The notes beneath the pieces were generated by a model. That model had not been told where the DNA came from. It made no database searches and saw nothing but the letters and a program-made list of their open reading frames with translations. The translations under genes were made by a program, and so were the position numbers. 64,000 nucleotides of DNA from Hemileia vastatrix (Eukaryota > Basidiomycota > Pucciniomycetes > Pucciniales > Zaghouaniaceae): positions 17,871,501 through 17,935,500 of the forward strand of contig JASXTE010000005.1 of NCBI GenBank assembly GCA_030280995.1, written 5' to 3'. Positions 3,810 through 62,369 of this stretch are shown here, piece after piece (the stretch's first letter is position 1; every line of letters starts with the position of its first letter).

Positions 3810-4991
3810 GATTATCTCATCATCATCAAATTCCTCAATATTAAATCAAATTAAGATGCATGTTCTGGATGTGAGAAGTCCACTTTCATCAAAGGTCAAT
3901 GGCTTCCTGTTGATGGAAAATGAAGTAAAAAGGAAAAAAAGGAACAATCAAAATCAATCCTAGGAAAATGAAGGAGAGATTAAAAATTTATCGATCAAAA
4001 TATAAAAAGGCTCATTTTTCTGCCTCTTCAACTGGCTTAGGTATTGATGATGATGAATTGGAGATTTAAATTACTAAATTTTCTGAAAATCTCAATTTCA
4101 TGTGTCATTTCTATGAGGAAATGGATAATATTTTTGGTTCCTAAGTTGATGTCAACCCTTGGTTTCCATGTGATACTACTAAGTATATACTCTCTGGATC
4201 TCAACCATCCAATAATCCTCCAGACACACCTGTACTTAAACAACATAAATCCCCTGAAGCTTCTAACCATAGTTCAGCTTAAGGTGATCCTGACTATCAA
4301 GCAGAACAATTATTTTGGAGCAGATCTGAGTCCTCAAAGCCCCCATGTTTTAATGTATGTTTACTTTTTATTTTTTTCATAAATTCTTCACTAAATTTAA
4401 CATTCTTTCTTTTCTAGTCTCCTCCAACTGAAACTCAAATTTCAAAAAAAAAATATTAACAATATCAGCAATGAGAATCCTGCTTTGCAAGCTGATTTAG
4501 ATGAACTTCCTGAACCCTCAAGCTCAAACTCCAAACTAAAGTGTCAAGCCACAACTTCAATGAGCTTGAGCTATCTTTTAAAATGTGATTATACTTCAAC
4601 CAGCTCTTTGGGCTCCCTTGAAAATTATTTTGAGAAAAAAGATATGAGTAAGAATTTTTCACTATATATCTTATTCAATAGCATATTTATTTATTTTTTC
4701 TATTCAATTTTTTCAGAAAATTCCTCAATATCAAAAAATGCACTTGAATTTGAGAAGATAAAGCTTGATTATATGCTAATGAAAGATCAACCAGCCTTAG
4801 ATTTGGAGGAAAAAGGTTTTTTCCTTCAATCAAACTTTGAAAAGGCCAGATATGATGAAGAGGAGATGAAAGAGTTGATCTTTGCTCAGAGAAAACAAAT
4901 GACTGTGAATTTCAAAGAGAAATGGCAAGTCCTGAATTGGAAAAGTAAGAATAAAATTATAAAAAAAAAGAATTCATTACAGAATGTATAA
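3810..4991 (+). pseudogene. Harbinger ORF2 protein remnant (H2)
   Basis: Broken frames here are homologous to the ORF2 genes of H1 and H3. Visible pieces in order are a trihelix/Myb-like N-terminal stretch (LNIKSN, then CSGCEKST, near 3820-3880), a basic segment KIYRSKYKKAHFSASSTG (about 3980-4030) with a downstream FMCHFYEEMDNIFG block, and an acidic/coiled-coil C-terminus (EFEKIKLDYMLMKDQPALDL, near 4745-4805). Stops and frameshifts interrupt it. Harbinger-type transposons commonly encode a second, DNA-binding protein that helps the transposase reach the element ends and the nucleus; assigning that role here is inference. The 168-residue open frame at 4485-4991 is its C-terminal half, probably with an unspliced intron inside (about 4645-4715). 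Confidence 0.6.
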
Positions 4992-5848
4992 ATAATGGCA
5001 AATCTTATGAGGGCATTTAAAAATTACTTGACCTTTTTAATGGATTATTTATTTTTTTGGGTAATGTTTGGTGCATGACATTAATGGTAAATTTTTTCTT
5101 ATTAAAAATAGTTATATCATCAGATTCTGTTAACATCATTTGTGCTTATTGGACTCTAGAATATCACACCTTTGAAATTTCAGATGGTGAAATAATGCTG
5201 AAACCTGTACAATTTTCATTTCTATATAGAGCTAAGTCAAAAAAAATCTTTATCTGTTTTTAAATTTTGGAAATACAGTTAACTGAATTTTATTGAGGTA
5301 AGGGGTGGTTATCAACAAAAATTTTCCAAGTTATCAATTTTGCATGTCAGATTTGAAAATTTTGCAATACCCTCCCCTGCATTTTAAAAAAGTAAGGGGT
5401 AAAAGTCACCAAAATTTAATATATTAACATAAATTTATTAATTAATAAATAAGATATTTCAAATTTACTAGTTTTAAATTAATGACAATTCCTAATGCCA
5501 AAATACAGATCAAGTCTATAAACAGAAGTTTTGGACTTTCCACAGGTATAGTCTAGAGGAATCCCATGAAATAATTTAATTTTTTCATGATTACCTGTTA
5601 TACAACACAAAGTTGTTGGAAAATTACTTCAATTTAGTAAATTGAAATAACAGATTTATTTATTAAGAATATATGAAATAATAATAATTATTTGGTGACT
5701 CTACACATCCTCATACTTTTTTTGATCTACCTAAATTTTTATTAAATTTATTACCTTTACCTTCTTTTTTTTAAATTGTTTATTTGTTGGATTAACTTTT
5801 AACTGATCTGAAACTATTAAACAAAATTTGTGAATTCTCAACAATATT
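4992..5848. other. H2 spacer between the converging ORF2 and TET-like genes
   Basis: No coding signal. It contains G/C-run repeats (aggtaaggggtggttatcaa...gcaataccctcccctg, 5295-5400) of the same type as the tandem repeats at the equivalent place in H1 (34050-34210) and H3 (58190-58450). It also has a block with cccatgaaa...ttcatgattacc (5560-5600) shared with H1 (33890-33950) and H3 (58610-58670). This shared noncoding block supports common descent of the three elements. Confidence 0.55.
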
Positions 5849-6345
5849 TCAAAGATAGAGGTGATTTCTTTTTTGGTGTTTATCATTAGAAGAGCTCCAA
5901 GCAGATTCTATCATTCCATTTCCTAAACCAAAATTAATTATACACTTATGATATGGAAAGTATAACCCATAAACTTTTATTTTAACAGGTGAAGGAATAG
6001 GTTTTCCAGTGATAGGATCAATATAAGAGAATATCCCTAAGGTAATATATTTGGCATCATTTGTATTGGTATGTATTTTGTTATAAAACCCAGAATGAGT
6101 TATTATATAATTTGAAAATAATAGATGTTTACTGCTAATTTCTTCCCATTCAAAGTCACACCAATTCAGTATTCCCACTCTTTCCACAAGTTCATAATTT
6201 TTCCAAAAGCTTTATTGCTGACTTTTTTAAGTTGAAGAGCAATAAAAGAATTAAAAGAAGGTAATGTGTCCCATTTTCCAAAATAATTATCTTTTTTAGC
6301 TTTAGATAATTTTTTTGAAAACAATAGATTCTTTTAGAATTAAAA
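5849..6345 (-). pseudogene. TET/JBP-like 2OG-Fe(II) dioxygenase remnant (H2)
   Basis: The 112-residue open frame ending at 5849 matches the C-terminal half of the H1 dioxygenase. Shared segments are GFYNKIH, GIFSYIDPITGKPIPSP, GLYFP and IINFGLGNGMIESAW. Further upstream on this strand (6190-6345) another frame gives the KWDTLPSFNSFIALQLKK region, matching RWDSLKSFNTFL in H1. The HxD iron site reads HTN, so the metal-binding aspartate is lost and catalysis is unlikely. Family knowledge: TET/JBP enzymes oxidise 5-methyl groups of pyrimidines in nucleic acid, and related genes are strongly expanded in basidiomycetes. It lies between ORF2 and the transposase, as in H1 and H3. Confidence 0.6.
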
Positions 6346-6385
6346 TGAGTGAAATAATATTAAGGGGGAAAGGGGGATATATCCA

Positions 6386-7332
6386 TGTCAAGGAGGGGAG
6401 AAATTTCAAAAGGTCCCTTTTGTTCTAGAAGATTTTCAACAGTCCAATGGCAGTGATAAGTGAAGGAGAGCTCAAGATTTTAAAAGTGTACTTATTTTGT
6501 TTCTTTTGTATTTAATTACCCAAAGAAAAGGTAAATAGTTTAATTATTATTATTAGGGGGTATCAAAGTTAGAAATTTGTAATTATTTAAAAGGTATTTC
6601 ACAACACAAAAAGAAAGCCACAAACTTGACATTCATTCTCAATAAAAAGGTTTTTTGGGGGCACAATATGGCATACTTTTAAAAATAATCATGTTTGATT
6701 TGGTGGAAAAAAGAGGCATTTTGAAATGGGGGACTTCTAACTTTGATACCCCCTATTATTTTGGTAACTTAGAGATACTAGATTGTAAATACTAAGAGAA
6801 GTAATAGTAGTAATAGACTGGTTGTATATAAAATAATTGATTGAAGTAAAGAATAGGATGAACAAAAACAGAGAGATTGAGAGGCCTTATATAGGCAAAA
6901 AGAGAGAAAATATGGAACCACAAGTCTACATACATGAGTAACTCGGAGAGATAAATCCCACAATATAGAAGTTTCAAATATTAAATTATTTTCTCATATA
7001 CAGTATTTATCTGTATACATCAATTTTAATTAAAATAATTTGATTTACTTAGTTTTCTGTATATGTCAAAGTACAAATAAAATATTTGATTTTAATATTT
7101 AGTGTTTTTATAGTTTTTAGTCTTCTTTTAAGTTGTCATTACAATGCTGTCAAGGGATAAAAAATGAGGGTAAATTAGAATTATATATTTACTTAATTTT
7201 ACTTATTCCTTAGTTAAAATATTATAAGTAAGTTAAAAAGTAAGTATAACTAGTATAATGAGAGGTAAAGGTGTTTCATACTCTAGTAAATAATAAATTA
7301 TTTACTGGGTAAGTCTAGTAGCATGGCTGACA
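6386..7332 (-). mobile_element. Divergent family-C LTR (minus), split by a mini-Harbinger
   Basis: Read on the minus strand it starts TGTCAGCCATGCTACTAGAC, close to the start of the LTRs at 16858 and 38306, and keeps the promoter block TTTGCCTATATAAGGCCTCTC (on this strand around 6880-6900). It ends at ctccttgaca near 6386. No internal region adjoins, and no perfect target duplication is evident. It carries the 198-bp Harbinger MITE at 6556-6753. The inferred order is H2, then this LTR, then the MITE. Confidence 0.6.
6556..6753. mobile_element. Mini-Harbinger (MITE)
   Basis: A 198-bp non-coding element with about 18-bp terminal inverted repeats, GGGGGTATCAAAGTTAGAA at the left and its complement at the right. 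It is flanked by TA on each side inside an AT-rich target. The repeat start GGGGGTATCAA is almost identical to the H3 termini (GGGGGTATCAATG), so H3-type transposase probably mobilised it. Confidence 0.8.
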
Positions 7333-7900
7333 AGAAAAGTGGGACAATACCCAGGTCAAGGAGGGATAAAAAGAGGATGATGGATAGAAAAAAAAGAAAT
7401 AACAGAGGGAAAGAAAAAAAAGGTTAGTTTTACCTAGATAATCAAAAAAAAAATCCTCTGACAAAAAATGAATATATAAAATAATTAAAATTATAATTAG
7501 CAAATATATAAGTAAAAATGAAAAAAATGATTTAACTGGATAGATGAGTTAAGAAAACAATTGACTTCAAATTATTTGAGGGATGCAAGAGGAGAAGAGG
7601 AAATGGATTTAACTGATGAAAGGAGAAAAGAATGACTGAAAAATTATGGGATGGCAGAAAAGATGCAATTTCATGTTGACTTAAAGAAGGAAAACAAAGA
7701 GACTTGAAAAGCAAATTCAAATTCAAATTCAATATGCAAAACTTAAATAACCATGACAAGTGAATAAAATATGCAACTTGATCATTTGAAGAGTATGAAA
7801 AAAAAAATTAAAAGGGTTGTGTTGAGAAGTTTAGGAGTGTTGTTGACATAATGATGGAGTGTATTCCAGTGGAAAGTAAGTTGTGTGAATCAAAGGGAGG
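7333..7900. other. H2 non-coding part downstream of the transposase
   Basis: AT-rich sequence whose minus strand has pyrimidine-rich runs homologous to the block after the transposase in H1 (31340-31560) and H3 (60160-60640); shared words include caacatgaaattgcat and ctcatctatcc. The open frames in it are low-complexity and not conserved. Confidence 0.5.
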
Positions 7901-10170
7901 TAGTAATTGTAGATCAAAATTTATAATAATTTAAGAATTAATTAAAGCTAAATCTCCCAATGTGCTTGTATGATTGGATGATTTTTTTTGGCCTTATGCT
8001 AGTGGTTTGAGAAATAGAAGTGTTGGATATAGTGGGAAGTGTTTTGACTTCTTTATCTTCATACAACTCTAACCATTGATCTTTGAGGTCAGCAAGTAGG
8101 TTATGAATTATAGTGCAGCACAGAATCCAGTTGATCACTGCCTCCATTTTGAGTTTATTTCTAAGAAGACTTCTTCATTCTCTTAACCTACAAAAACAAC
8201 CTTTTAAGATTTTAATTAAATGTTCAATTCAGACTCTTTACTCTTCCAAATGATTGATGAACTTGGCATTTTGACTTTCTTCTGAAGCTGCTCCCCAAAA
8301 ATCAGGAAGTACATACTTCCCATTCACATAAGTAGAATCTACCAGAAGGTACCAATCTTTATTAAAGAATTTTTTAGGTTCTTTTGAAATTTGCATCCTT
8401 TGGATGACATATGAATCATGACAGGATCCAGGATAGCCATCAAAGAAAGATATAAATATTTTGTTGATGTCACATATAAGCTGAACAGAAATTGAATATC
8501 TATAGAGAAGAGATAATTTTTTGTGTTAGTATGAAAGAGATTGAAAGGTATTAAAAAATAAGCTACCTCTTTTTTTTTGGTCAGAGTCATTATTTCCACC
8601 TTTAGTAGGTTTCTGGCTCAAAGGAATAGCTGTACCATTAACAAAATAAATACATCCTGTGAACCCCTCTGCTTTCATAACCTGATATGATTCAAGTTCC
8701 TCTTCTTTTGTTGGCCAGGTGAGAAGTTGAGATTCCAAGGAGTTGATAGCAGTGATGCATCATTTTGTATAAGTGCTAACAGAACCTGTCAGCCTAGGTA
8801 TCTCCAGGACTGAGTAATTCTTATGTTTAAAATAAGATAACCTTAAATACATTAAGCTTATATCTTAAAAATAAGGTTAAAACACTTATATATATGTTTA
8901 TAATACATATATATATAATTATTACACTATTATATAACTTATAGTAGTTTAAATAGCTTATCCATAGCCTAATAATACTTATTAAGGTGTTAATGGAGTC
9001 ATAATATATTTATCTTAAGTGATATTAAGTAATTATTGACATACATAACCTTATATGCATACATAAATCTCATATTCAGTGAAATATGCAGTATATTATG
9101 TATATTTAGGTCTATAAGTGGGTTTTAGCCTCTTAATAGCCTATAACCTTTGTTTTTCTGCTTATTTTAGGTCATATGGATGTATCCAGTGGATTCACAA
9201 CGCCTAAAGAAGCATATACATCTATTTCAGGCGCATGTACTCATTTTGGACAACTTAATCTGTTTCCTTGGATGGATATTCACAGATTTATGGGTTGGGA
9301 GGTCATTGCTGGGTTAATATGGATGCGTGGGGATGTTATTGGAGGCTTGTACATTTAATTTGTTTCCTTTATATGCTTTGGGTTTCATTATATTCCCTTT
9401 GGATGAGTTATTTTACTTGTTTCTTTATGGTATCTGCTTTTATCTGGATTTTCTATCTATGGTATGGGTCTGTGTTATCATTAATTGTGATGGAGCGCCC
9501 TTACTGGAGGTCTGGATGTTGAAACTGCTTGAAGTGGACGCCATGGGGAGGTGATGGGCCCTCACAGTGCTGTAATTGCCGGAGATAGCAGTGACATCAT
9601 CTGGATTGAAGGTCTGTGCACTCCAGTGGATTTTGGTATAAGGAGGGATTTGACGGGTTATTGATCATCACTTACTTACTACAATTCAATTAAACATTTA
9701 AACACAATTATTATCATTTAAAAATATATTATAAAACCTTTATAAGTTGATATTATCATTATATAAGCTATACCTATATTTTATTCATCTATTTTTCACC
9801 ACTAGCACACATTTTAATCCAAGTATTGCAAATTTTATTTGAGTATAGCTATTTTATTAGTCTTCCCCTGAGGTTTAATCACTAAATCATTTATAAATAA
9901 GTAGTAGGACGATTAATAAATACTATTAAATCATACTTATATACTAGATATACTGACAGAACCATACCTTAAATTAAAGACATTTTCCAAAACATTTCAA
10001 GGCAGCTCTATTACCATTAGAGCCCAAACAACATAATGTGATGACTGATTGAATTGAAGGATCACATTGTTGTGAAAGACAGGGTGATCCTGAATAAACT
10101 CAAAACAATTGAAGGAAACATTCCTGAGAAGTCTTGTACCAAACTGTTTAAAACTGGGCACCAGTAGGTT
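7900..10170 (-). pseudogene. PIF/Harbinger DDE transposase remnant (H2), split by an LTR
   Basis: Minus-strand pieces match the H1 transposase. The N-terminal part lies at 9959-10170 (FIQDHPVFHNN), the centre at 8526-8738 (GFTGCIYFVNGTAIPLSQKP), then a CHDSYVI-type block near 8390-8440, and the C-terminus at 7938-8147 (CTIIHNLLADLKDQW). The first catalytic residue is changed (FVDGT to FVNGT) and frames are broken. A family-B LTR with a perfect 5-bp target duplication interrupts the coding sequence at 8787-9958. Family knowledge: DDE_Tnp_4-type enzymes cut and paste DNA with three acidic residues. This copy is dead. Confidence 0.8.
8787..9958 (+). mobile_element. Solo LTR, family B, with 5-bp target duplication
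   Basis: A 1,172-bp LTR, TGTCAGCCTAGG...CTGACA, bracketed by a perfect gaacc/gaacc duplication (8782-8786 and 9959-9963). The flanks rejoin as one Harbinger transposase pseudogene, which proves insertion. It is the same length as, and closely similar to, the LTR at 27078-28249 that terminates chromovirus G1, so it is probably a solo LTR of the G1 family. Small frames inside it (9176-9554) recur in all family-B copies and are LTR sequence. Confidence 0.9.
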
Positions 10171-29631: not shown

Positions 29632-29737
29632 TGTCAGCCTATGTATCTCCAGGACTGAGTAATTCTTATGTTTAAAATAGGGGGTCTCAAACTTGACCAA
29701 ATATGCCACATAAACACACCACAAAAAAGTACCAAAC

Positions 29738-29800
29738 ATGCCATCAAAAAATGAAATACACCTGCCCTGGACAGGTGTATTTTGATGGCGTCTTTGGTCC
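29738..29800. repeat. H1 left subterminal hairpin
   Basis: GCCATCAAA, then AAATACACCTG, a short spacer, and CAGGTGTATTTTGATGGC form an imperfect inverted repeat that contains two copies of the subterminal word. Probable transposase or ORF2 recognition site (inference). Confidence 0.55.
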
Positions 29801-30017
29801 CAAAGACACCATCTTTTGGGCAAAACAAGCCATCAAAACACTCCACTCCTTCTTCTTGATTAGTCAGCACTAGGTACAGACACGCCATCACCTTAGATTT
29901 TTTTTCCACCTAATTCTTAAGGGCGTATTATTCAACATGTGAAAAACATGACTTCCCACCAATTAAGCAGCCCCTTCATCATACACTCGCCCTTAATCTT
30001 CATCACCGCTCATCAAC

Positions 30018-31284
30018 ATGCCACTTTCAATCCGTCAACAGCTTCACATCCTTGCTACTGCTGTAGCCCTTGATCTATTGGATAGTTCTGATATTAATTC
30101 CGATGCTGAACTGGACTTTGCTTACATGTGTGACATGCTGGATAATCGCTACCTAGTATCCAGAACTCCTTCCATACAAAACCAACCACGATATTACCTT
30201 GATGTTCTTTCCAAAATTCCTGAAATTAGCTTTAAACAAATGTTCCGTACAACTTTGCCTGGATTTCTCACCTTACATGAATTTATAAGAGATCACCCAG
30301 TTTTCCAGAACAATTCTTGTTGTCCACAAAGAGATCCTGCTATTCAACTATCTGTTGCACTTTGTCGTTTTGGCTCAAATGGTAATGGTACTGCTTTAAC
30401 CTGTCTTGAAAACCTCTTTCAGATTAGTCAAGGAACCATTCACCTTTATACAAAGCGTGTAATTACTGCGATTCTTTCCCTTGAAGATCAACTTTTGACA
30501 TTGCCCAATAAGAATGAACGCTTGGAGAACTCTCAGGTGATGCAAAAATAAGGCTTTCCTGGTTGCATTGGTTTTGTTGATGGTACCACCATCCCATTAA
30601 GTCAAAAACCTGCTAGAGATGGAAATAACTATTTTGATTGTAAAAAAAGGTTTGGATTATCTCATTTAAAATTTCTCATTTTAACCTCACACTAATCTTT
30701 TCCTTTTTGGAACCTTCAGATATTATATTGCTCTTCAATTGGTTTGTGATATCAACAAGAAATTTATTGCTTTCCATTCTGGCTTCCCTGGGGCTTGTCA
30801 TGATTCCTCAGTATTTCAACAAATGTCTATTTCTCAAGAACCTCAATTTTTTTTTGATGAGAACCAGTATCTTCTTGCGGACTCTGCTTATCAAAGTGGA
30901 ATTTATGTCATCCCAGCTTTTCGTGGTACTGGTGATGAAGAAAGTGAAAGATCAAGATTCAATAATCATTTTGCCAGATCCCGTGTCAGAATTGAGCATG
31001 CAATCGGTATACTGAAAGGACGTTTTTCTTCTCTAAGAGAAATGAGATCTCAATTACGGAATGAAAATGAAATGAAGGTTGTCATACAGTGGATTAAAGC
31101 TTGTCTCATATTGCACAATCTCCTTGCAAATTTGAAAGATGAATGGAGTGAACTCTATGAAGATGAAATTCCTGAACCACCTCCTCCTATTGAATCTCAT
31201 AATACTTCTTCATCCTCCCAATCCAATGCCATGCGTTCCAAAATACTACCCATCACCCTTTCCCATTTTCAAGAACTAGATTGA
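30018..31284 (+). pseudogene. PIF/Harbinger DDE transposase (H1), one in-frame stop
   Basis: Two exons, 30018-30649 and 30720-31284, joined by a 70-bp GT..AG intron, make 398 codons. One TAA (30549-30551) stands where homologues have an acidic residue before GFPG. The DDE_Tnp_4 (HARBI1-like) catalytic residues are all present: FVDGTTIPLS (first Asp), YLLADSAYQSG (second Asp) and RVRIEHAIGILKGRFSSL (Glu). N-terminally come DHPVFQNNSCCPQRDPAIQL and the helix-turn-helix-like QISQGTIHLYTKRV. The enzyme cuts and reinserts the element in the nucleus. The sequence is much better preserved than the H2 and H3 copies, so H1 is the youngest of the three. The start is the first Met after the left subterminal region. 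A stop-suppressed or corrected allele could be active. Confidence 0.9.
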
Positions 31285-31293
31285 CTATTTTTT

Positions 31294-31540
31294 TTGCATA
31301 TTGAATTTGTTTTTGAATTTGCTATCAATGTCTCATTTTGTGGTGTGTCATTTGTTTCACTTCACCAGCTCAACATGAAATCGCATATTTTCTCAAATCA
31401 CATATTTTGTCAGTGTTTTTTTTTTCATTCATCACTCATATCCTTTTCCTCCTCTCCTCAAACATCCCTCTGTTTCTTAGGTTGCTTTTATTTTCTCAAC
31501 TAATCTCACCAGGTAAGTCATTTTTTCAATTTTTATGATT
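31294..31540 (+). other. H1 spacer after the transposase
   Basis: Conserved non-coding block shared with H2 (7540-7780, minus) and H3 (60400-60640, minus), recognisable by the caacatgaaat-gcat word and pyrimidine runs. Small open frames here overlap each other and are not conserved. Confidence 0.5.
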
Positions 31541-31672
31541 TTTACTTTGCTAATGATGTTTTTTTTCCTTTTCCTTTTCCTTTCTTTTTTTTTTTTTTTT
31601 GTAAGTGCTTCATTTTTTGGTTTTCAAGGTTATACTGATTTTTGTTTGTTTTTTTTCTCTCTCTTTTGTCTT

Positions 31673-31705
<33 letters not shown>

Positions 31706-31870
31706 CTCCAGCTTTCCCCCTTTCCCCCTTTTTTTTCTCTCTCTCTGCTTCAAGTTTCCCTCTTTTTTCCCCCCTCAAGCACCCTTTCCACCCCCTCACC
31801 ACCCCTTTTTCCCCCTTTTCCCCCCTTTCTTCCCCCCTTACCACCCCTCTAGCCCCCCCTGCTACCCTCG
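31541..31870 (+). repeat. Pyrimidine-rich tract with CT microsatellite
   Basis: Almost pure C/T on the plus strand, with (CT) repeats at about 31675-31705 and C4-C6 runs to 31860. Open frames on both strands here are low-complexity artefacts. Confidence 0.85.
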
Positions 31871-31876
31871 ATAACA

Positions 31877-31940
31877 AATTGTTAACAATTCGTTAGCGAT
31901 TTGTTTACTTAATGATAACAAATCGTTACCGATTTGTTAT
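31877..31940. repeat. Palindrome pair at a strand-composition switch
   Basis: AATTGTTAACAATT (31877-31890) is a perfect 14-bp palindrome. ATAACAAATCG (31915-31925), loop TTAC, CGATTTGTTAT (31930-31940) is a perfect 11-bp-arm hairpin. They sit between the C-rich tract and the G-rich minisatellite. Confidence 0.85.
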
Positions 31941-31947
31941 TGGTAAG

Positions 31948-32062
31948 TAAGGGGGGGGGAAGGGGGGAAAAGGGGGGAAAAGGGGGGAAAAGGGGGGAAA
32001 AGGGGGGAAAAGGGGGGAAATGGGGGGAAATGGGGGGGTATGGGGGGATATGAGGGGGGGTG
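31948..32062 (+). repeat. G-rich minisatellite
   Basis: Roughly eight 10-bp units of the form AGGGGGGAAA, followed by more G runs. It is complementary in type to the C-rich tract on the other side of the hairpin. Such G runs can form quadruplexes. Confidence 0.85.
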
Positions 32063-32094
32063 GGATGATTTATTATGCAATAAAATACTAATTT

Positions 32095-32430
32095 TTTTTA
32101 AATTTTTTTTTTTAACGAGAAATTAAGAAAAATAAATTGGCTATTGGGACTAAATAAAAAAATTATTTTTTTTGGGATCATTTTTTTGGGGGTTTTAGGA
32201 TCTACTTTTTCCTATTGGGACTTAAAAAAAAATTTTTTTTTTTTTTGGGGATTTTTTTTTTGGCATTTTCAGTTCAACTTTTGGCTTTTGGAACTTGAAA
32301 AAAAAAATTTTTTTTTGGATCTTTTTTTTGGCGTTTTCAGTTCGACTTTTGGCTATTGAAACTTGAATTTTTTTTTTTATTGGTTCTTCTTTTTGGTGTT
32401 TTTGGAATAACTTTTGGTATGTCTCTTCTA
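32095..32430 (+). repeat. T/A-rich tandem repeat, about 65-bp unit
   Basis: Three to four imperfect units, each containing TTTTCAGTTC-ACTTTTGGC, TTG(G/A)-ACTT, an A run and a T run. It lies directly upstream of the TET-like gene, so it may act as its promoter region; this is only a positional inference. Confidence 0.7.
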
Positions 32431-32529
32431 TTTTATACTATATTTCTTTTTATTTATTTTATTTCTTTTCTTTAGATAAATATGAAATAAAATTTGGAGT
32501 TACCAGAAAAATAAAGTATTTCTTCACTA

Positions 32530-33788
32530 TCATCATCATCACTTTCTTCTCTTTCTTCCTTGTCTTCCTCATCACTTTCATCACTTTCTTCTTTATCATC
32601 ATCATCACTTTCTTCATTATCATCTCAAACATCAAAAAATGATTCATCTTCAAAAATCAATTCGAATTTATCAAATAATAACGAATCTTCATTATCCTTT
32701 AATTCAAAAAAAATTTTTAGAAGAAAACAATTACTTGAAAGTTTTTTTGGAAGTTTAAGCAATATCACTCTCTTCAAAACGACTATCTTAAAAAAGAAAA
32801 AACAATATCCAGAAGATCTACCAGAAAGTACAAAATTTCTACCAAAATCAGGATCTGATCAACTTGTCACTGTTATTTCAAATCTTTTTGAACCCCAATT
32901 TATTTTTCGTGTTCATTCTTTTCATGAAATTCCAAATAAAACATTTGAAAAATTATCAATTCTCATATCTACTTTATATCAAATGGCATTAGCTCGACAA
33001 CCTTTAAAAAATAAAAATCTTTCTGGTGGTCATATGTATGGAATTGGTTGGAGACCTGGATTTTATGAAGGATTTTTAATGGGTAAGTTTTTTTCCAATT
33101 TTTCCAAATTTTTTATTAATCTTCTTTTTTTTTAAATATTATTTTATTTTAATTTTATATAGGAATTTACTCATTACTTAGAAATCTTAGTCCTAAAGAA
33201 ATGGAAGAAGATCTTCAAAGATGGGACTCATTAAAATCCTTCAATACTTTTTTAATTGGACAAGTAAAGAAACTTTGTATACATGCTTTTAAAATTAATA
33301 ATAAGCTGGCCAAGAAATTTTGAATCCCCAATTGGACAGAAGAAGAATGGAATCAACTTAACGATGGAGATGTTTTTGCTTCTAATGTTGTAATAACTTT
33401 TGGTGGATTTCATAATAAAATTCATTTGGATGATAAAGATATCAACTCTCTTACCTTTGTATTATTCTCCTATATCGATCCCAAAACTGGAAAACCAATC
33501 CCTTCACCTTCTCCTTCCATCAGAGGTCATGGCTTATACTTTCCCGATCATCAAACAATAATTGATTTTGGGACTGGAAATGGAATTATTGAAACAATTT
33601 GGAATTCATACTCCCATAATCATCAAACGACTTAAGCACCTCCTGGTTTGGAATCTTGTGATCAGTTCACCCACTTTGGTTGTTCCTTTCAAATCAATAG
33701 AACTTTGGTAGATTGGGTTAAAAAGGTAAGAGAAGAAGGTAATGTAAAAAATAAAATATTAGATAGAAAAAGAAAGTATGGGATCTAA
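32530..33788 (+). pseudogene. TET/JBP-like 2OG-Fe(II) dioxygenase carried by H1
   Basis: A Ser/Leu-rich low-complexity N-terminus (32530-32640) leads into a conserved body: SDQLVTVISNLFEPQF, HMYGIGWRPGFYEGFLMG, an intron at 33083-33162 (GT..AG), then RWDSLKSFNTFLIGQVKKL. The catalytic core reads GGFHNKIHLDDKDINSLTF, FSYIDPKTGKPIPSP and TIIDFGTGNGIIETIW. The HxD iron site (HLD) is intact, and HNHQTT probably provides the distal His. This pattern fits the fungal Tet-like 2OG-Fe(II) oxygenases, relatives of enzymes that oxidise 5-methylcytosine or thymine in DNA. Two in-frame stops (after AKKF and after HQTT, the latter where H3 has Lys) break it. No ATG start was found upstream; a TTG at 32560 opens the frame. 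Same relative position as in H2 and H3. A different 2OG-oxygenase activity cannot be excluded. Confidence 0.65.
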
Positions 33789-34049
33789 AAAGATTGTTAA
33801 GTTTTATTCTTACTTCAAGAATTAATGTATAACCAATCATATGAGATAATCAACTTACTTAAATTAATGGGCCTGTTGACCGTGCTGTTGTGTAAAAGGT
33901 TATCATGAAAATTAATTTTTTCATGGGGTTCATATATGCTACATTTAGGTATATGAATGGCCATTGTTTAACTTTATTCTTTAACTCATATGATTGGTTT
34001 ATATGTTAATTTGTGAAATGAGAATAAAATTTGGCAATCTAGAACCCTA

Positions 34050-34210
34050 CTTTAATAAAACACAGGGGGGGGGTATTGCCATTTTTTTTTTGCAATCAAA
34101 AAATGGTGATCCATCCCCCCTACTTTAATAAAAAACAGGGGGGGGTATTGCCAATTTTTTTTTTGCAATCAAAAAATGGTGATCCATACCCTAGTAAAAT
34201 GCCGGGGATA
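34050..34210. repeat. Tandem repeat between convergent genes of H1
   Basis: Two to three units of about 77 bp: ctactttaataaaa, an aca-G run, GTATTGCCA, a T run, TGCAATCAAAAAATGG, TGATCCAT. Similar repeats occupy the same place in H3 (58190-58450) and a worn version is in H2 (5290-5410). Confidence 0.75.
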
Positions 34211-34539
34211 GTATTGCCAAATTTTTATAATTAGTCAAAAAATATTTGTGAATTTAATTAACTTGTGATTTGTGAATTTAAGAATCTTGTGGATAGGGGT
34301 TAATGAAGCCATTGAAAATCCCTAGTTGAACAAATGATCTAAATTTCCATGCATCCCACGCATACTCAGATTCTATAAAGTATCAAGGTATCAACACATT
34401 TGCTTAAATATAATATTTCATATCAATTACATTTCATCTTAAGAAAAAAAAATAAAAACAATTGATAGAAGACTTTCATGTAGATATAAAAGAAGAAATT
34501 AAGAAAGAAATAGGCTAATAGAAATTTAAAATTTATATT

Positions 34540-35769
34540 TTATTTCATAAAACTAAGTAACTCTTTAATTTTGTCATTTGATTTCTTGGCATTAACACAT
34601 GCAGTCAAAAAACTATAGTTTCTGGATTTTTCCATATCCACTTGCTTCATTTTGAATTCTTCAGCTTGTAACTGAAATTTAGAATTTTCCAATTGAAACT
34701 GATTATCTCTGAACTTTTCATCGTCCTCCCTTTGAAATCTTATCTTCTCCCTCTCAATTTGCATACTACGTTCTTCCTTTTCCTGTAAATGAAACCACTT
34801 TTTTTCCTCAAATAATAATTTTCGTTCTGCAGATTTTTAAATAGACTCTATCTTCATAATCTCTACATTAGCTTGTTCCTTGTCTGCTATAAGTTTATCT
34901 TTATATAAAAAGGGGTTAGCTATAAAAACTACATTAGTAAATCCAAAAAAAAAAAATACCTTGTTCACGTTTGTTAACAAGCTCCCCATAGGCCGAAAAA
35001 AGAACCTTTGATGTAGACTGAGGTGTGAAAAAACTACTAGAAGCCCTTCTCTTTCTTCTATTACTACCTGATGGAACTGGTTCCTCATCTTCTAATCTTT
35101 CATCATCAGATAGTTCCTTAAAATTTGAAGGATTTGATGGGCCTTGAGTCTGAATGATAAATAGAGTAGATTATAAATGCCAAAAAAATATCCAAAGTAA
35201 TTGAAGCTTACAATGATGGGTTCATCCTCCTCAGGATAATAATGTAAGGTGGGCTCATCATCTTCAGGAGAGCTGAGTAAAGGATCTAAAGGTAAATCTT
35301 GATTGTTTGTATTTGGTTGAACTGGTTTAGGTGCTTGAGATGTGTACAAGGGATTGATATCGGGTCTTTGTCCAAAGAGCTCATCCATTTGACAATAAAG
35401 AGGACACATAGTTTCAAGCTTCTCAGAAATAGAAGTGATACCTTGTTTCTCGTCATCTTCAGTAACTCCAAAGCCAGTTGAAGAAGGAGCCATCTTTGCC
35501 TTCTTATATTTACCTTGATAATTTTTAAATTGTTCTCTCATTTGCTTTGTTGTCAAATCCATCTTACCTATAGTTTTTGATTTTAATTACAGTGCCATTT
35601 GATTATAACCTTTCAGTTTTGATGCAGGTGGAAGACCAACTCGGGTAGCCTTTTCACAACCAAAGCAGGCTTCAAAATTGGATTTAATTTTTAGCCAGTT
35701 GATTATGATCTGAAGATCAGCTGTTTTCAATTGAGTAAATTTTTGAGAAGCAGTTGTGGTACGAGGCAT
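34540..35769 (-). pseudogene. Harbinger ORF2: trihelix/Myb-like and coiled-coil protein (H1)
   Basis: Minus-strand order: the N-terminal frame 35587-35769 has IIINWLKIKSNFEACFGCEK and RVGLPPASKLKGYNQMA. A single TAA follows, then MREQFKNYQGKYKKAKMAPS and ISEKLETMCPLYCQMDELFG, completing a trihelix/SANT-like DNA-binding module. An acidic linker follows, then a basic segment (RRKRRASSSFF, likely nuclear localisation), and finally a long charged coiled coil (34540-34900; EKIRFQREDDEKFRDNQFQ) ending DKIKELLSFMK. Probable introns lie at about 35150-35210 and 34905-34975. PIF/Harbinger elements usually encode a transposase and such a second protein that cooperate in the nucleus. Here it faces the transposase and TET-like gene. 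The function is inferred by family. Confidence 0.7.
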
Positions 35770-36199
35770 GATAAATGAGAACTATGAAAAATATATAAGT
35801 CTGTGAATAAAGAAAAGTTTTTTGAATAAATAAAAAAAACCTAACTACGTTTATGGATTTGAAAAGATATCCTGAAGCAGAAATAAGAAGATGTTAGGAT
35901 AGAAATCTGAGCAGGAAGTGTTGTGAAAGAAGGGGATGAAAAGTGTAAAACTTACTGGGGTAAGATGGATAAAAATTTTTATCGGAAAAGTAGGAGGGGA
36001 AAGATGGGTTGTGCGGTGAATTTTGGGGATCTATGTATAGTTGGGCTGAATCGTGGTTGGAAAAATTGAGCTAAAGTAGGACGTATTTGACCCCAAGTTT
36101 GAGATGTCAGGTACCAAATCAGCCATGTTTGATGGCATGTCTGGGTGGCGGGTTTGAGATGAAATCCACCAGGAAGATTTTCTCAAGTTTGAGACCCCC
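35770..36199. other. H1 right subterminal region
   Basis: Non-coding. It carries CAAGTTTGAGA twice (36092 and 36184), TTTGATGGCATG at 36128 and GAAATCCACCAG at 36161; the last word also occurs near the H2 right end (10807). It ends in the 16-bp inverted repeat. Confidence 0.6.
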
Positions 36200-37332
36200 T
36201 AATAAGATAGCCTTAATTACATTAAGCTTATTACTTAAAAATAAGGTTAAAATACTTATATATATGGTTATAATACATACATATAAAATTTTGACACTAT
36301 TATATGACTTATAGTAGTTTAAATAGCTTATCCATAGCCTAATATTACTTCTTAAGGTGTTAATAAAGTCATAATATACTTATCTTAAGTGATATCAAGT
36401 AATTATAGACATACATAAGCTTATATGTATACATAAACCTCATATTCAGTGAAATATGTAGTTATATTATGTATATTTAGGTCTATAAGTGGGTTTAAAC
36501 CTCTTAATAGCCTATAACCTTTACTTTTCTGCTTATTTTAGGTCATATGGACGTATTCTGTGGACTCACAAAGCCTACACAAGCATATACACCTATTTCA
36601 GGCACATATATCCAGTTTGGTCAACTTAATCTGCTTCCTTGGATGGATTTTCACGGATTTATGGGTTGGGATATGATTACTGGGTTAATATGGATACTTG
36701 AGGATGTTATTGGGGGCTTGCACAGTTAATTTGGTTCCTTTATATGCTTTGGGTTTCATTATATACTCTTTTGATGAGTTATTTTGCCTGTTTTTTTATG
36801 GTATCTGCTTTTATCTGTTTATTCTATTTATGGTATGGGTCTGTGGTATCATTAATTAAGATGGAGGGTTCTTACTACAGGTCAAAGTCTTGAAACTGCT
36901 TTAAGTGGACGCCATGGGTAGGTGATGGGCCCTCACAGTGCTGTAATTGCCGTGGATAGCAGTGACATCATCTGGATTGAAGGTATGTGCACTCCAGTGG
37001 ATTTTGGTATAAATAAGGGAGGATTTGATGGGCTATTGGACATCACTTACTTACTAAACCTCAAAAAACATGAAAAAACAACTATTATCATATATAAATA
37101 TATTATAAAGCATTTATAAATTGATATTATCTTTATATAAGCTATAACTATATTTTATTATTCTATTTTCCACCACTAGCACGCATATAATCCAAATATT
37201 GTGAGTTTATATTAAGAATAACTATTCTATTAGTCTTCTCCTGAGGTTTAATCACTAAATCATTTAACAATAAGTACTAGGACCATTGATATTTACTATT
37301 AAATCATACTTAGATACTAGAACACACTGACA

Positions 37333-55380: not shown

Positions 55381-55389
55381 ATTTCTCCA

Positions 55390-56386
55390 TTTTTAAGTAA
55401 GCTCCTGCCTGTCCCATGACTTTTCCTCTAAGATGAGGTGACCTGTAGATAGATGAAAGTGTTGTGTTGGCTCAGGAAGTCCATATTCAATTTAAGAGAA
55501 AACTTTTTTATTAATCAGGAGGCACTAATAAGATTCAAAGTGTAATATCTGATTTTTTGTTTGGAAGGCTTAAAATGTGAAACTTTATTTGAAGTTAATG
55601 TTGGAAGTTTTCCCCAAGTGCCAAAATGGGTGATTCAAGAAGACCCAATGGATCAGCAGGATGGTTCCAGACTAGAATAGAAGTGAACAGTTGTCTGAGT
55701 TGATGCCCAGTCTTTATTTATGATGCTTCATCCACACAATTATTGTATTCAGCATCATCTTTCAAAACACCATATGCCAAGCAAGCAGCCTTGAAGGTTG
55801 AATATTGGACACCATGCAAATGTCTCATAGAGTCATAGCTTATTGGTTCAGCCACATGGTAAAGCAGAAGGCACAAGTAAAACCGTTCGTGAGAATTTGG
55901 TCCACAGAAGGCAACCGGCCCAATGGCTGTGTCTCTTTAATAAATTTTTCACTTCTTTTTACTTCTGTGCACCAAAATTAAATAAGGAAAGAGTAGAATT
56001 ATAGAAGAACATCCTAAGGACTCACACATTCCAAAAAAAAACTGGATTAGAGCATCAGGAAAAGTGACTCCCTGAGCCACCTCGTCAGTTGAGGGATTAG
56101 AGCATTCTGTAAACCACTCTGTTAGGGTGATTTTCCTGCTTCCCAACACATTACCTTCAGTTGTAATCTCCCCCCTAAGATTAAATATAACTGCCTGTTG
56201 AAATGAAAAGTGAAGCTTTAATCATGTAACTTCTGATTCATGACCATGAAATGGAAAAGCAAACAATAGCCATAATGCTTCAAATGCTGTAACATACCTA
56301 CCATCCAGATATTCCTTGGCCTCATATATTATTCCATCTGTCTACAGGACCATTTTGGAAGGGTCATGACCCTTGTACACATGGTA
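55390..56386 (-). pseudogene. Helitron Rep-helicase linker region
   Basis: Broken minus-strand frames with VYKGHDPSKMVL (56345-56385), DGRYVTAFEALWLLFAFPFH (56240-56310), TLTEWF (about 56115) and HLHGVQYSTFKAACLAYGVL (55770-55840). These are typical of the conserved stretch between Rep and helicase in Helitron polyproteins. The N-terminal neighbour of VYKGHD lies across H3, at about 62360. Confidence 0.75.
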
Positions 56387-56399
56387 AGGGGTATCAATG

Positions 56400-56759
56400 T
56401 TGACCAATTTTCAATTAAATTAATTGCCAATAGAAATCATTATACCCCAATTATCTTCAGCAATTATTTTTGCTAATAATTGGGTTATTAGACCTTTTAC
56501 GTGTCAATGTTCACCTCTATCTGACATTATTATCCTCAATTTTTCATAACCACATCTTGGATAACTCTCTAGATTTGTCAGACTCCCTAACTTTCTGCGC
56601 ACTCCCATCCTGTCTAATCATTTCCGTTCAAAACCCCTCCCCATCTCATCTGTTTTTTCTTCTCCTTTTCATCTTTAAATATCTCAACATTCCCCATCAT
56701 AATAGATCTTCTCAAAGGCAGCCTTGACCCAATTTTTCTTCAAATCCCATTACTCCCTC
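56400..56759 (+). other. H3 left subterminal region
   Basis: Non-coding; becomes pyrimidine-rich from about 56500. The 85-codon open frame at 56470-56727 is low-complexity and not supported as a gene. Confidence 0.45.
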
Positions 56760-58049
56760 TTTCACCTGCTCAGCTGAGAAATCAAAGACTGTTCAACTAA
56801 AAAAAAAGATGATCATCTCATACTTATCAACTGGCTAAAATTAAAAACTAGTTATGATTTTTGTTTTGGTACTGAGAATGCAACTAAAGTAGGACAGCCC
56901 CCTGCATCAAAAATCAATTGCTATCTTCTAATGGCCAATGAATTTTAAAATAAGACAAAGGGAAGGATCAATTTTTTGCCTAAAAAGTTGTCTGAAAATT
57001 TCAAGCATTACTAAGCCAAATACAAGATGCCAAAGACTCTTTCATTTTCTATAGGTTTTGGTATTACCGACATCAATATAATTAAGGGCACAAAGTATAT
57101 AGATGATAAACTTGATTTGCTATGTCCATACTTTAAAGAGATTGATCCTATTTTTTGAGAGAGAGCTGATGTTAATCCTACCAAAATTTTGGATGGTGAA
57201 GATGTTATCTCTGAACATGATGTTGAAAGAAATATTTTCCCATCCTCTCCCTCCACTAAAGCCTCCACTGTTCTGAATTCAACAAATCTAGATAGCTTTC
57301 CAATAGATTATTATGGCTATATAAACCAATGTGATCCCACTCCAGTAAGTTTTTATTTCTTCTCTAGTTGTTTTATTTTTTTTATTTCTTAAAAGGCTAA
57401 TGAACAAACCCAGGATCCTCAAGCAAGTGAGTCTGTAGCTAGCATCAATGATGAAGAGGAAAATGTTATCTCCAAAAAAAGTAAAGACCGTCAACTACTT
57501 TGAATTTCAACAGTCATAGAAAGCAAAACAGAGATAGTTTTTCCCAAACCCCTTTTTCTTCCATTGATTATTTTCTGGAGAAATGTGAATCTGGTAAGTG
57601 ATAGCATACCTCTTAATAATTAAGTGAGCCTTTCTTCTCTTTTGTTAATATTCCTTTTCACTCTTGGTAAAGTTTAAGTTGCAAGAGATACTCTCAACTT
57701 TCAAAAGAAACAATATGAGCTCTCTTTACAAAGGGATGATAGGGCACAAGACTTGGAGGAGAAGAAATTCTAGCTTTCTTTACAGAGGGATGGGAAGATA
57801 CAAGACTTGGAGGAGAAGAAATTCAAGCTTTCTTTAAAGAGGGATGAGAGGGCACATGAATTGGAGGAAAGGAAAATTGAGATAAAGAAAGAGGAGAAAG
57901 CTTTTGAGTACAATTTCCTATTGGATAAAATGAAAATTAAGTATCAACTTGAAGAAGGTTCAAAAAAGAAAGATTTCTTGAGAGATTATGTTAAAGCTAA
58001 TAAATCTATTGAGGAAATTGAACGCTTAATGAAAAAGTTTGATAACTAG
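56760..58049 (+). pseudogene. Harbinger ORF2 protein remnant (H3)
   Basis: N-terminal trihelix-like blocks LINWLKLKTSYDFCFGTENA and VGQPPASKI (56820-56930), then KLSENFKHY, FSIGFGITD and DKLDLLCPYFKEIDPIF (56985-57155), and ADVNPTKILDGEDVISEHD. A probable intron lies at 57345-57395. A C-terminal coiled coil follows (LKRDERAHELEERKIEIKKE, 57807-58049) that starts with a duplicated QDLEEKKF-type unit. It ends EEIERLMKKFDN. It corresponds piece by piece to H1 34540-35769, with more stops. Confidence 0.65.
57700..57860 (+). repeat. Short coding tandem repeat in H3 ORF2
   Basis: The words AGCT(C/T)TCTTTA-AAGGGATG and CAAGACTTGGAGGAGAAGAA repeat two to three times at about 60-bp spacing, expanding the coiled coil. 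Confidence 0.65.
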
Positions 58050-58189
58050 TTTTTTTTATTTTGTTTACAAAGTTTTCTCGATAGAATGCATTAAAGCTAA
58101 TAGTTTATCCTTTGCACACACTTCTCACTGAGATTTGAAAAATTCACTGCAAGAAATCTAAGGGTGAACTGCTAGCAATCCCCTCTCCT

Positions 58190-58450
58190 GAACTTTAGAG
58201 TCTCCTAATTATTTTTGACAATAACCTCCCCTGATCTTTACCATAACAGGGGGTGGGGATCACCATTTTTTTTCTAAGTCAGAAAAAAATTTATGACAAA
58301 AAAAATGGCAATACCCTCACCTGTTTTTTACCATAACAGGGGGTGGGGAAAATCATTTTTTTTCTAAGTCAGAGAAAAAATTTATGACAAAAAAAAAAAG
58401 GCAATAACCTCTCCAGTTTTTAATTGAAGTAGGGGCATAGATTGCCAAAA
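58190..58450. repeat. Tandem repeat between convergent genes of H3
   Basis: Two and a half units of about 118 bp: ACCATAACAGGGGGTGGGG, a T run, CTAAGTCAGA, an A run, TTTATGACA, an A run, GGCAATA-CCTC. This is the counterpart of H1 34050-34210. Confidence 0.75.
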
Positions 58451-58789
58451 TTTATGTTAATTGCTAAATAAATTTGAAAACAAGTCTTATAAGATAATTA
58501 ACAAACCTAAATTAATGAAAAATCAAGTAAAAATCTGAGTGGAAATTGTCTGTGACCAAAGTCAATGAAATCAAACACAAATGCATACATGAACCCCAAG
58601 AGAAAAACATATTTCCTCATGATTACCATTATACAACACACGGTAAATGGATTATTAATTTAGGTAAGTAGATTATCATATGTGACTTGTAAAATGTTAA
58701 TTTGGGAAATGAAAATAAAATTTGACAACCTATATTACACCCCATACTTTTTCTTTTTACCTAATGTTTTTTGTTTTACCTCACCTTTT

Positions 58790-59130
58790 TCTCTTACCTC
58801 ATCAATCCTATTGACCAGCTCCCTATTTATTTGAAAATAAAATCTAAAATGTGTGGATTCTTCACAGGATTCTAAGAAAGGTGGTGCTTTAGTTGTCTGG
58901 TGATTGTGAAGATTAGAATACCATTTCCTGTTCCAAAGTCAATAATGCATTGATGGTCTGGAAACTATAGACCATGTAATTTTGTAGATGAAAAGAGTGA
59001 GGGGATAGGAAGACCATTTTTTGGATTAATTAATGAGAATATTCTAAATTTGAGTGAGTTGAGATTGTTTTTATCCATGTAAATTTTGTTATAAAAACCA
59101 CCAAAGGTTACTGTGACATTAGAAGCAAAT
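58790..59130 (-). pseudogene. TET/JBP-like dioxygenase remnant (H3)
   Basis: The minus strand reads FASNVTVTFGGFYNKIYMDK, FRIFSLINPKNGLPIPS, FPDHQCIIDFGTGNGI and, in another frame, NHQTTKAPPFLESCEESTHF. This parallels the H1 gene (FASNVVITFGGFHNKIHLDD and so on) closely. The HxD site is YMD, so the iron-binding His is lost. A stop and a frameshift are present and the N-terminal half is missing. Confidence 0.6.
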
Positions 59131-59807
59131 TTTCAAATTTGCACAAAAACTTGAACAGTGATGATGAAAAGTCCAAAAAGAGGGAGATAGAAGCCTATAT
59201 ATTAATCAGATAAGAGATTCAGAATCCTTATTATCTAATTATGCAATATATAAAGGTGAAATAAGATAAGTGAAATTTGGAAAAAAAGGCTCAACTTCAA
59301 AGGTCAATATCTCAGCAACCACTGAACCTAATTCAAACCTGTTTGTGGGAAAAAAGAGATAAGCTTTAGTAGATTCTTCAATAAAAGGAAAAGTGATTTA
59401 AATAAATCTAACCCTAATTTGTTACATAAAAAATGAAATAAAAATCTAAATTGGGAAAAAAAAGGCTCAACTTTAATGGTCAATATCTCAGCAACCACTG
59501 AACCAAATCCAAATCTGTTTGTAAGAAATTTAAGGTAGCCTTCAGGAGATTTTTCAGTAAAAAGAAAATTAGATTCAAATAAAATTAATCCTAATTCCAA
59601 GTCTGATTTTCAAAATTTTACAAAAACTTGAAAAGTGGTAATGGAGATGAGAACAAAAGGAGTTTAATAAGTTCACTGTTATCCAGATAACAGTCATACA
59701 TATATTTAAGTATGAAATTTTCATAAAAGGAATGAAATATCATATAGGCATGAAAACAGGAGATGAAACTTACCTTGATTGAAAAGTAGGAATAAAAGAA
59801 TGAGAAA
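59131..59807. repeat. H3 internal stretch with a duplicated about 180-bp block
   Basis: The words GGTCAATATCTCAGCAACCACTGAACC occur at 59301 and again at 59480, each followed by TCTGTTTGT/CTGTTTGT and an AAGAGAT-like stretch, giving a direct repeat of about 180 bp. No gene. Confidence 0.65.
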
Positions 59808-60046
59808 CACTATGCAATATTGGGGGTGGACTCGCTAGCAAGTCCCCAACCTGAACTCAGACTGAACTCATACTAAAGCCATACTGAACTCTACTTGAAC
59901 ACCAAAATAAGACTGCTCTGTTGAGTGGTGTTCATCCCTGATTGTATGGCTCCTTTGTCAATAGCTTAATTTGTGTTCAATCTATGGTGAATTTGAGTCC
60001 AAGGTTGTGGACTTGCTAACAAGTCCGCCCCCCATATTGCGCGGTG
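59808..60046 (+). mobile_element. CACTA-like MITE, copy 4
   Basis: 239 bp with a perfect aaa/aaa duplication. Ends are CACTATGCAATATTGGGGG and, complementary, CACCGCGCAATATGGGGGG. The palindromes are GGACTCGCTAGCAAGTCC (left) and GGACTTGCTAACAAGTCC (right), each with one change. It is the same orientation as copy 1 and inverted relative to copies 2 and 3. Confidence 0.93.
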
Positions 60047-60648
60047 AAAGATTGATGTTGGAATTATGGGGAAATTGAGTATGGAGTAAGTGAAATGCAT
60101 AAAGAATGTGAAATTTATGAGTTTTAATGACATGGAGCCAAAAAAAAGTGAAATAGGGGAAAGGGGGGATAATGACCATGCCAAGGTGGGATGAAGAGTA
60201 GGGTGATGGAGCTAAAAAAGAAAGTAAAGAGGGAGAGAAAAAAAGGTTAATTGTACCATTGAAATCAAAAATAACCACTTAAAAAAAGTTTAGATACAAA
60301 AAATAAAAAAAAATTATAATAAGTAATCAAAAAATCAAAAAAAGAAAAAAATTACTTACATAGAGAGATGAGATGAGGAAATAAATGAAACCAAATTGTT
60401 TGAGGGATATTGGAGGAGAAAAGGAAAAGGAATTGAGGGATGAATTAAAAAAAGAAACAGTGAAATATTATGCAATTTCAGGAAATATGTGATGTCATGA
60501 TGAGCTGGTGAAAGAAAACAAATGAGCCATTCAAAAAAGAGATATTCACTATAACTTCCAAAAAAAATGAATATGTAACAAAAAAAAATACCAAGCCAAG
60601 TAAATAAAGTATACAAAGTGGAAATTTGAAGAGTATGAAAACAAAAAA

Positions 60649-61871
60649 TTAAAAGGGTTGTGTGCCAAAATGGTGGAGGGTGATTGGCATAATGATAGAG
60701 CATATGTTAGTCGGATGAATGTTTTGTGATTCAAGGGAGGGGAGAGCCGGTGCTGGTTCAGGATCCTCTTCTTCATAAAGGTCATTCCACTCATCCTTTA
60801 AATCAGCTAGGATATTGTGGAGTATAATACAAGTCATAATCCAATTATTTGCAGTCTTGATTTCTATTTTTTTTGAAATTGGATTCTGAGTTCCCAGAGA
60901 CTAGAAAATCTTCCCTTTAAAATCCCTATAGCGATTTTAATCCATACTCTTGATTAGGCAAAGTGATAATTAAAGGTGGATTTGGGGCCATTTTCTAATA
61001 TTGAACCACAGAAAGCAGATATAATGTACTTTCCACTTGCATCTGCTGAGTCTGCAAGGAGGTACTGAGATTTGTCAAAGTTTGAGTCACGAATTTAAGA
61101 AATCCTCATTTTTTAGAATACAGAAGAGTCATGACATGAGCTGGGGCACCCAATATGAAAATCAAGAAAATTTTTGCTGATGTCACAGACAAGTTGAACA
61201 GCAATACAGTATCTAAAAAGAAGATAAAAAGCTTGTTAATGAAATATTTGAAATTGGGGAAAATGTTTAAGAAACTTTTTTTTGAAATCAAAATAATGGC
61301 TGCCATCTAGAGCAGGAATTTGACTCAAATGTATAGTTGTACCATCAACAGAACCTACACATCCAGGTAAAACTTTGGCTTGCATTACTTGAGAGGATTC
61401 AAGTCACTGTTGTGGAGTTGGCCAAGCAAGTGTTTGAGACTTGAAAGAAAGGATATCAATCATGCAGTGCTTGTTATATAATATGACGGTACCATATCCT
61501 ATGGTAAAGATATTATCTAAATGTCTTTCAGCTGCGCCATTTCAATTTGAACCAAAGCAACATAGTGCGACAGCAAGTGGAAAGGCAGGATCACGCTGTT
61601 TGTTATGGGAATTATTATGGAAAATAGGATGATTGGAGATGAGTTGAGAAAGTTTGAAAAAAGAATCAGGAGAAGTTTGAAATGGTTGAGTGAAGTTTAG
61701 TTGAGGAATGTTGAGAATGGAGCAGAGAACATATCTGGGATCATGATAAAGATTTGGCCCCCTTATGATGATGTAACGCTTTTTGGAAAGATAAGACATA
61801 TAAGCTAAAGTGTCTTCCAAACCAGAGTCAGAATCAGAGTCAGCAGCTAAAACTAAAGTGATAGCATCCAT
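60649..61871 (-). pseudogene. PIF/Harbinger DDE transposase remnant (H3)
   Basis: The N-terminus is at 61542-61871 (MDAITLVLAADSDSDSGLED, ISNHPIFHNNSHNKQRDPAF). The core follows with VDGTTIHLSQIPALDGSHYF (first Asp kept), a 60-70-bp intron, VQLVCDISKNF, CHDSSVF, QYLLADSADASGKY (second Asp kept) and VWIKIAIGILKGRFSSL, where the catalytic Glu is Lys. The C-terminus (ILHNILADLKDEWNDLYEEE) ends at 60649. Stops lie near 61540, 61410 and 61100. Same gene structure as H1. Confidence 0.85.
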
Positions 61872-62189
61872 AGCTGAGTGAAGCTACTTCCTAGTAGAGA
61901 GGTGCTTCATTATTTTCAGTAGAAGGCTTAGGTGATGAGTGGGAAGTGGGAATTCACCACCAAATGAGCAGGTGGGGTGTGTAGACAGAAAAAAATGTTA
62001 TGTGTTTGCCACCAAAATTAAGTATCATAGAGTGAAGAGACACATAAGGATGAGAAAAAATGTTATGTGTTTGCCACCAAAATTTAGTATCATAGAGTGA
62101 GGAAAGACTTAAGGATGGAATGAGCAATTATAAGTCATGTGACTTTCTTAAAAATCCATCATGGATGTGATGAGTTTGGGATCAGGAAT

Positions 62190-62354
62190 TAGGAACAGAA
62201 ATTGGGGTATAAGACGGGATAATGCATTATCCTGAATTACTTATCCACTAGTCCAGGGGCTAGTGAATGAGAATCTTCCATAATTAATAATGTCAGATCA
62301 CAGGAAAAAAAATTCCTGATCCGTAATTACGGATCCCTGAACATTGATACCCCC
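62190..62354. repeat. H3 right subterminal region with palindromes
   Basis: GATCCGTAATTACGGATC (62318-62335 approximately) is a perfect 18-bp palindrome just inside the terminus. GGATAATGCATTATCC lies further in. Both are plausible binding sites for the element-encoded proteins. Confidence 0.6.
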
Positions 62355-62369
62355 TATTTTTAGAGATAA

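Follow-up and report, generated by a model that had tools for sequence, protein, structure and literature searches.

Harbinger transposons that carry a TET gene have been in print since December 2025, when Kojima (2025; PMC12730594) described fifteen such families from six Pucciniales. In that paper, the PHISTA lineage is named for its TA duplications, its third proteins are without Myb/SANT, and TET-positive Harbingers are proposed to escape methylation silencing. Section 4.2 offers, for Puccinia, a role for TET against methylation-linked mutation, and a TCG bias is cited for Pucciniomycotina. How does an individual element of this kind compare? To address this question we examined H1, a 6.5 kb element in a 64,000-nucleotide stretch of Hemileia vastatrix DNA (assembly GCA_030280995.1, contig JASXTE010000005.1, positions 17,871,501 to 17,935,500, forward strand; hereafter the window).

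H1 is a TET-positive PIF/Harbinger element, close to PHISTA but apparently differing in the two features by which that lineage was distinguished. Like PHISTA, it combines, in a rust fungus, a Harbinger-type transposase with a TET/JBP dioxygenase and a third protein, and TA lies beside the G-run ends on both sides (here in 15 of 16 end pairs). Unlike PHISTA as there described, the duplication is 3 bp, AAT or ATT, and lies outside an A and a T that are the last bases of the element itself, and for the third protein there is a Myb/SANT-like signal below threshold. Since the TA duplication from which PHISTA takes its name was looked for and a different one was found, we do not file H1 as a PHISTA member. 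Nuwa and the canonical PIF/Harbingers, as presented in the same source, share with H1 the 3-bp duplication and the pairing of a transposase with a probable Myb/SANT-like partner, but H1 adds the TET gene and has the target AWT. According to that source, PU-type TET genes are common to the TET-positive KDZ, hAT7, IS3EU, EnSpm, ESTA and Helitron transposons of fungi, which have other transposases, ends and target duplications. The initial annotation of this DNA regarded TET as an undescribed Harbinger component; that claim falls, the December 2025 paper having described it with the same proposed function. New against the literature found are the 3-bp duplication supported by empty sites, the Myb/SANT-like signal and the CpG/TCG decay of TET-positive copies. 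A literature search under the names PF20515 and Tet-like 2OG (2-oxoglutarate) found no publications.

Anatomy of H1 and its three genes

H1 extends from the A at 29679 to the T at 36200. Its terminal inverted repeats (left, AGGGGGTCTCAAACTTGA..., 29679..29707, plus strand; right, 36172..36200, minus strand) were delimited by repeat pairing and by comparison of ends. The paired arms, 29678–29707 and 36172–36201, are 87% identical over 30 nt with 6464 nt between them. Within the G-run end motif the outermost 17 nt are exact inverted repeats, and both ends match the 16-mer GGGGGTCTCAAACTTG without a mismatch. Allowing up to three mismatches, GGGGGTCTCAAACTTG has four matches in the window, a number reached in none of 100 shuffles; the two matches outside H1 terminate a small element at 6556–6753. 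The latter, 198 bp long, has H1-type ends (GGGGGTATCAAAGTTA) and an ATT duplication and is a short non-autonomous relative. The gene set is, with near certainty, a transposase and, co-oriented with it, a TET/JBP-like dioxygenase, plus a probable DNA-binding partner on the opposite strand.

The transposase gene (30018..31284, plus strand, intron 30650–30719) is of the DDE_Tnp_4 type: the piece at 30685–31281 matches PF13359 at E 4.3e-22 (78.9 bits; cut-off 24.8). Together with the exact outer 17 nt this bears out the earlier view of a Harbinger element with well-defined inverted repeats. Long G-run and C-run tracts face one another at 31883–32078, between the transposase and TET genes.

The TET-like gene (32482..33788, plus strand, intron 33083–33162) encodes a Tet-like 2OG-Fe(II) oxygenase. 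The piece at 33324–33632 matches PF20515 at E 4.6e-23 (82.8 bits; cut-off 27), two pieces before 33324 are weak continuations (0.0095 and 0.4), and the whole second exon of a close genomic copy, L010, scores E 4.8e-31 (108.8 bits; same cut-off). The TET/JBP likeness perceived in the initial annotation is thus upheld by profile search, and the motifs it named, HLD, DPKTGKPIPSP and IIDFGTGNG, are all present in H1. It placed the gene at 32530–33788; the end stands, while comparison with open copies, which set our gene model, moves the start to 32482 and reveals the intron. What of the Fe(II) ligands? Of 32 TET matches, 25 retain both HxD and the distal His, which it had proposed checking, and the other seven have lost one or both. 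The invariant distal His in the alignment of relatives is that of HQTT; the His of PDHQT was considered and rejected, as it varies among relatives. The domain is shared by Puccinia and Austropuccinia proteins of the PF20515 family (P0026, P0028, P0030, P0034, P0038–P0039 and P0041–P0042, compared as proteins alone), and matches whose source is named are 35–48% identical to the L010 TET exon. A protein search with the N-terminal part of the H1 product gave 222 candidates, none at E ≤ 0.01, and a PDB sequence search with TET gave a single meaningless match (E 6.2).

The third gene, open reading frame 2 (ORF2; 34540..35769, minus strand), has several exons. Its N-terminal domain gives a Myb/SANT-like signal with a profile score below the cut-off, its structure model is helical and like a DNA-binding domain, and its C-terminal stretch resembles, by eye, a coiled coil; a PDB sequence search with ORF2 returned no match. 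The description 'trihelix/coiled-coil' in the initial annotation survives in part, as the sub-threshold signal and the helical model. From profile and model, ORF2 is probably a DNA-binding partner protein.

H1 itself is a dead copy, a state absent from the earlier account. In-frame stops lie at 30549 in the transposase, at 32488, 33321 and 33633 in TET, and at 35587–35589 in ORF2; because each of the three genes has at least one, H1 is non-functional. Gene pieces were searched separately, and open copies elsewhere served for the gene models. The element lies 45 nt inside a long terminal repeat (LTR) whose other copies in the window, which has a G+C content of 32.5%, are without H1.

Recurrence, selection and decay of the TET-like gene

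As the initial annotation had supposed, the TET-like gene is a standing component of the element and not a chance neighbour, because it is carried both by H2 and H3, diverged relatives within the window, and by eight close copies in the genome. H2 (3962..10141, minus strand, found by tblastn) is broken: its transposase (10141–7986) is split by a solo LTR at 8787–9958, TET lies at 6315–5766 with HTN where HxD is expected, and ORF2 runs from 3962 in reverse. The small element at 6556–6753 is nested in H2. The LTR-like unit at 8787–9958 has the form TGTCAG...CTGACA with, by eye, GAACC on both sides; an LTR of the same type also hosts H1. H3 (56386..62355, minus strand, found by tblastn and end comparison) is also broken, with both inverted repeats, a transposase at 61901–60667, TET at 59129–58738 with YMD in place of HxD, and ORF2 from 56949 in reverse. 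In a tblastn search of the window with H1 pieces, both keep the gene order and orientation of H1, with identities to H1 of 44–61% for transposase pieces, 50–62% for the main TET piece and 38–39% for the ORF2 piece.

The genome assembly (747.6 Mb, 791 contigs) was searched with TET, 150 of 10397 first-look candidates being scored, so that the counts are lower bounds. The main H1 TET piece has at least nine matches at 92–100%, H1 included; the next match is at 70%. The eight close copies besides H1 are at 92–95%; seven have both end repeats and measure 6.5–7.3 kb, and one is cut. TET itself was the query that yielded all nine TET-positive family copies. Twenty further loci were chosen from the remaining 141 matches, open frames being preferred. 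Nine match all three genes, arranged as in H1; five are without a transposase match, three without an ORF2 match and three without either. The TET intron position is common to 20 of 20 loci in which both exon edges were matched (31 loci considered).

Between families, the ratio of nonsynonymous to synonymous change (dN/dS) of TET is low, 0.19–0.25 in all eight comparisons. Synonymous difference between families is 0.57–0.67 for TET and 0.73–0.77 for transposase pieces; the lower TET value could reflect a later exchange of TET or merely a different codon constraint.

The copies have decayed at CpG. In the eight full family copies, C at CpG has changed to T at a rate of 0.162 per site and copy, 17-fold the 0.0096 of other C, and G-to-A change is 0.160 at CpG and 0.0071 elsewhere. 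C-to-T change is highest at TCG, at 0.29, which is the bias that Kojima (2025) cites for Pucciniomycotina.

Two neighbouring regions of the window, both on the minus strand, are recorded here. Open reading frames at 11221–14721 resemble, by eye, a Cdc27/APC3-type tetratricopeptide repeat gene, and CpG observed/expected there is 0.57, against 0.205 for the whole window. Those at 53804–55392 have, again by eye, the look of a PIF1-type helicase and might belong to a Helitron.

The target site duplication

If TA lies beside almost every end, is it the target? H1 is flanked by AAT at 29676..29678 and by the identical letters at 36201..36203, and paralogous empty sites support this reading. The same three letters, AAT or ATT, stand outside the terminal A and T in 14 of the 16 end pairs, including all eight full H1-family copies; the exceptions are H3 and one pair in L031. 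The joined flanks of H1, L014, L016 and one L028 pair are 5 nt longer than their paralogous empty sites. Three of these five nucleotides are target, and the other two are the A and T that close the element; had TA been duplicated, the excess would be 2. The H1 comparison used seven places, in two of which the aligner shifted the gap. The L025 empty site agrees, with its 5-nt gap split in two, and the empty-site alignment of the small element at 6556 is at just 71%. A TA duplication is therefore ruled out by empty sites that show 3 bp, AWT. The canonical PIF/Harbinger target is TWA.

The role of the TET-like gene

What might the TET-like gene do for its element? The explanation that we find best overall, and fairly probable, is that H1 is a dead Harbinger copy bearing a selected TET gene with an anti-methylation role. 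On this view the gene was in place before the divergence of the families found here, and selection on the protein has retained it. The enzyme would oxidise 5-methylcytosine on the element's own DNA, to which it would probably be brought by the end-binding partner protein or by the transposase, and oxidation would relieve methylation silencing or lower methylation-driven C-to-T mutation. Towards this mechanism, with its presumed substrate, targeting and benefit, we lean slightly. The points that weigh against such a role come from the state of recent copies, from units that share the ends, from the mutations and from the modelled protein; we take them with the alternative that each bears upon.

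TET could be a captured passenger, of little or no use to the element, that spread by lying between its ends. The TET frame is broken in seven of nine family copies. Weighing against a selected role, dN/dS within the H1 family is 0.32–0.61 (three pairs), from which it follows that recent copies are mostly drifting. Also against the favoured explanation, the 17-nt end motif of H1 has 361 exact sites in the genome (166 on one strand and 195 on the other; none for the reversed control), far in excess of the TET-positive copies found, of which the eight full ones account for 16. Most units with H1-type ends may therefore lack TET. Among the 100 sites listed there are five facing pairs within 10 kb, two being the TET-positive copies L013 and L014; of the other three, two span just 3.4–3.7 kb. 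In addition, L032–L034 represent a rearranged 3.75 kb repeat, 97% alike, whose TET block has a common in-frame TGA and which includes an antisense transposase piece (L033 is oriented 2926–6667). This derivative falls among many TET matches at 66%, seems abundant and has multiplied. Given the excess of end motifs and this multiplied derivative, a working TET in cis is not required for spread. On the other hand, a useless passenger would have to be squared with the low dN/dS in all eight comparisons between families, with the Fe(II) ligands kept in most matches and with TET frames that persist open to their natural end in two of the nine copies (L010 and L016). Moreover, breakage does not single out TET, because the other two genes are also broken in many copies: the first ORF2 exon is open in five of the eight copies that have it, and the transposase is without a premature stop in only two of nine (L010 and L013, the former also lacking the usual stop at codon 399). 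We regard a passenger as unlikely, though it is the alternative that survives best.

A somewhat less likely alternative is that the enzyme mainly blocks methylation-linked mutation, of a kind resembling repeat-induced point mutation and directed at TCG, rather than reactivating transcription of the element. The CpG decay of the family copies, above all at TCG, speaks for this, and section 4.2 of Kojima (2025; PMC12730594) advances the same idea for Puccinia. But that decay is strong despite the TET gene; methylation-linked mutation evidently acts on these elements all the same.

Less probable again is that the protein is a 2OG oxygenase of a protein or RNA substrate and not a DNA base oxidase. 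Its structure model has a mean pLDDT (the model's own per-residue confidence) of 59, and a Foldseek search with it gave no match at E 0.001. The top matches are prolyl and lysyl hydroxylases, with unrelated folds scoring equally high, and beyond the distal His the alignment has no column of invariant Arg or Lys that might bind 2OG. However, PF20515 is named Tet-like, and CMD1 with 5-methylcytosine DNA is among the near-tied structural matches, its alignment being among the longest, although the model is too poor to decide; no solved TET, as distinct from CMD1, stands among the matches listed in either structure comparison, 50 of them in one. Finally, that TET came to lie in H1 through the nested insertion of some unrelated element is so improbable as to be dismissed: family copies at separate sites, and diverged families too, repeat the gene order, the orientation and the intron.

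Returning to the selected, anti-methylation gene, we offer tentatively, as a possibility short of an even chance, a reading that joins these strands. The TET-positive Harbingers of rusts may be ordinary two-protein PIF/Harbingers, with a 3-bp duplication and a Myb/SANT-like partner, that acquired TET once before the families diverged. The end-binding partner might also guide the oxidase to the DNA of its own element, the whole forming a device for self-targeted demethylation, and the TA of PHISTA might be the element's terminal A and T misread as target.

An element equipped to erase the silencing mark of its host would exemplify directly an arms race fought over DNA methylation. Copies that share their ends but have TET open, broken or perhaps absent coexist in this genome, where the copies also show CpG/TCG decay. 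The length of the duplication, 3 bp, and the partner protein bear, in turn, on where the limits of the PHISTA class should be set.
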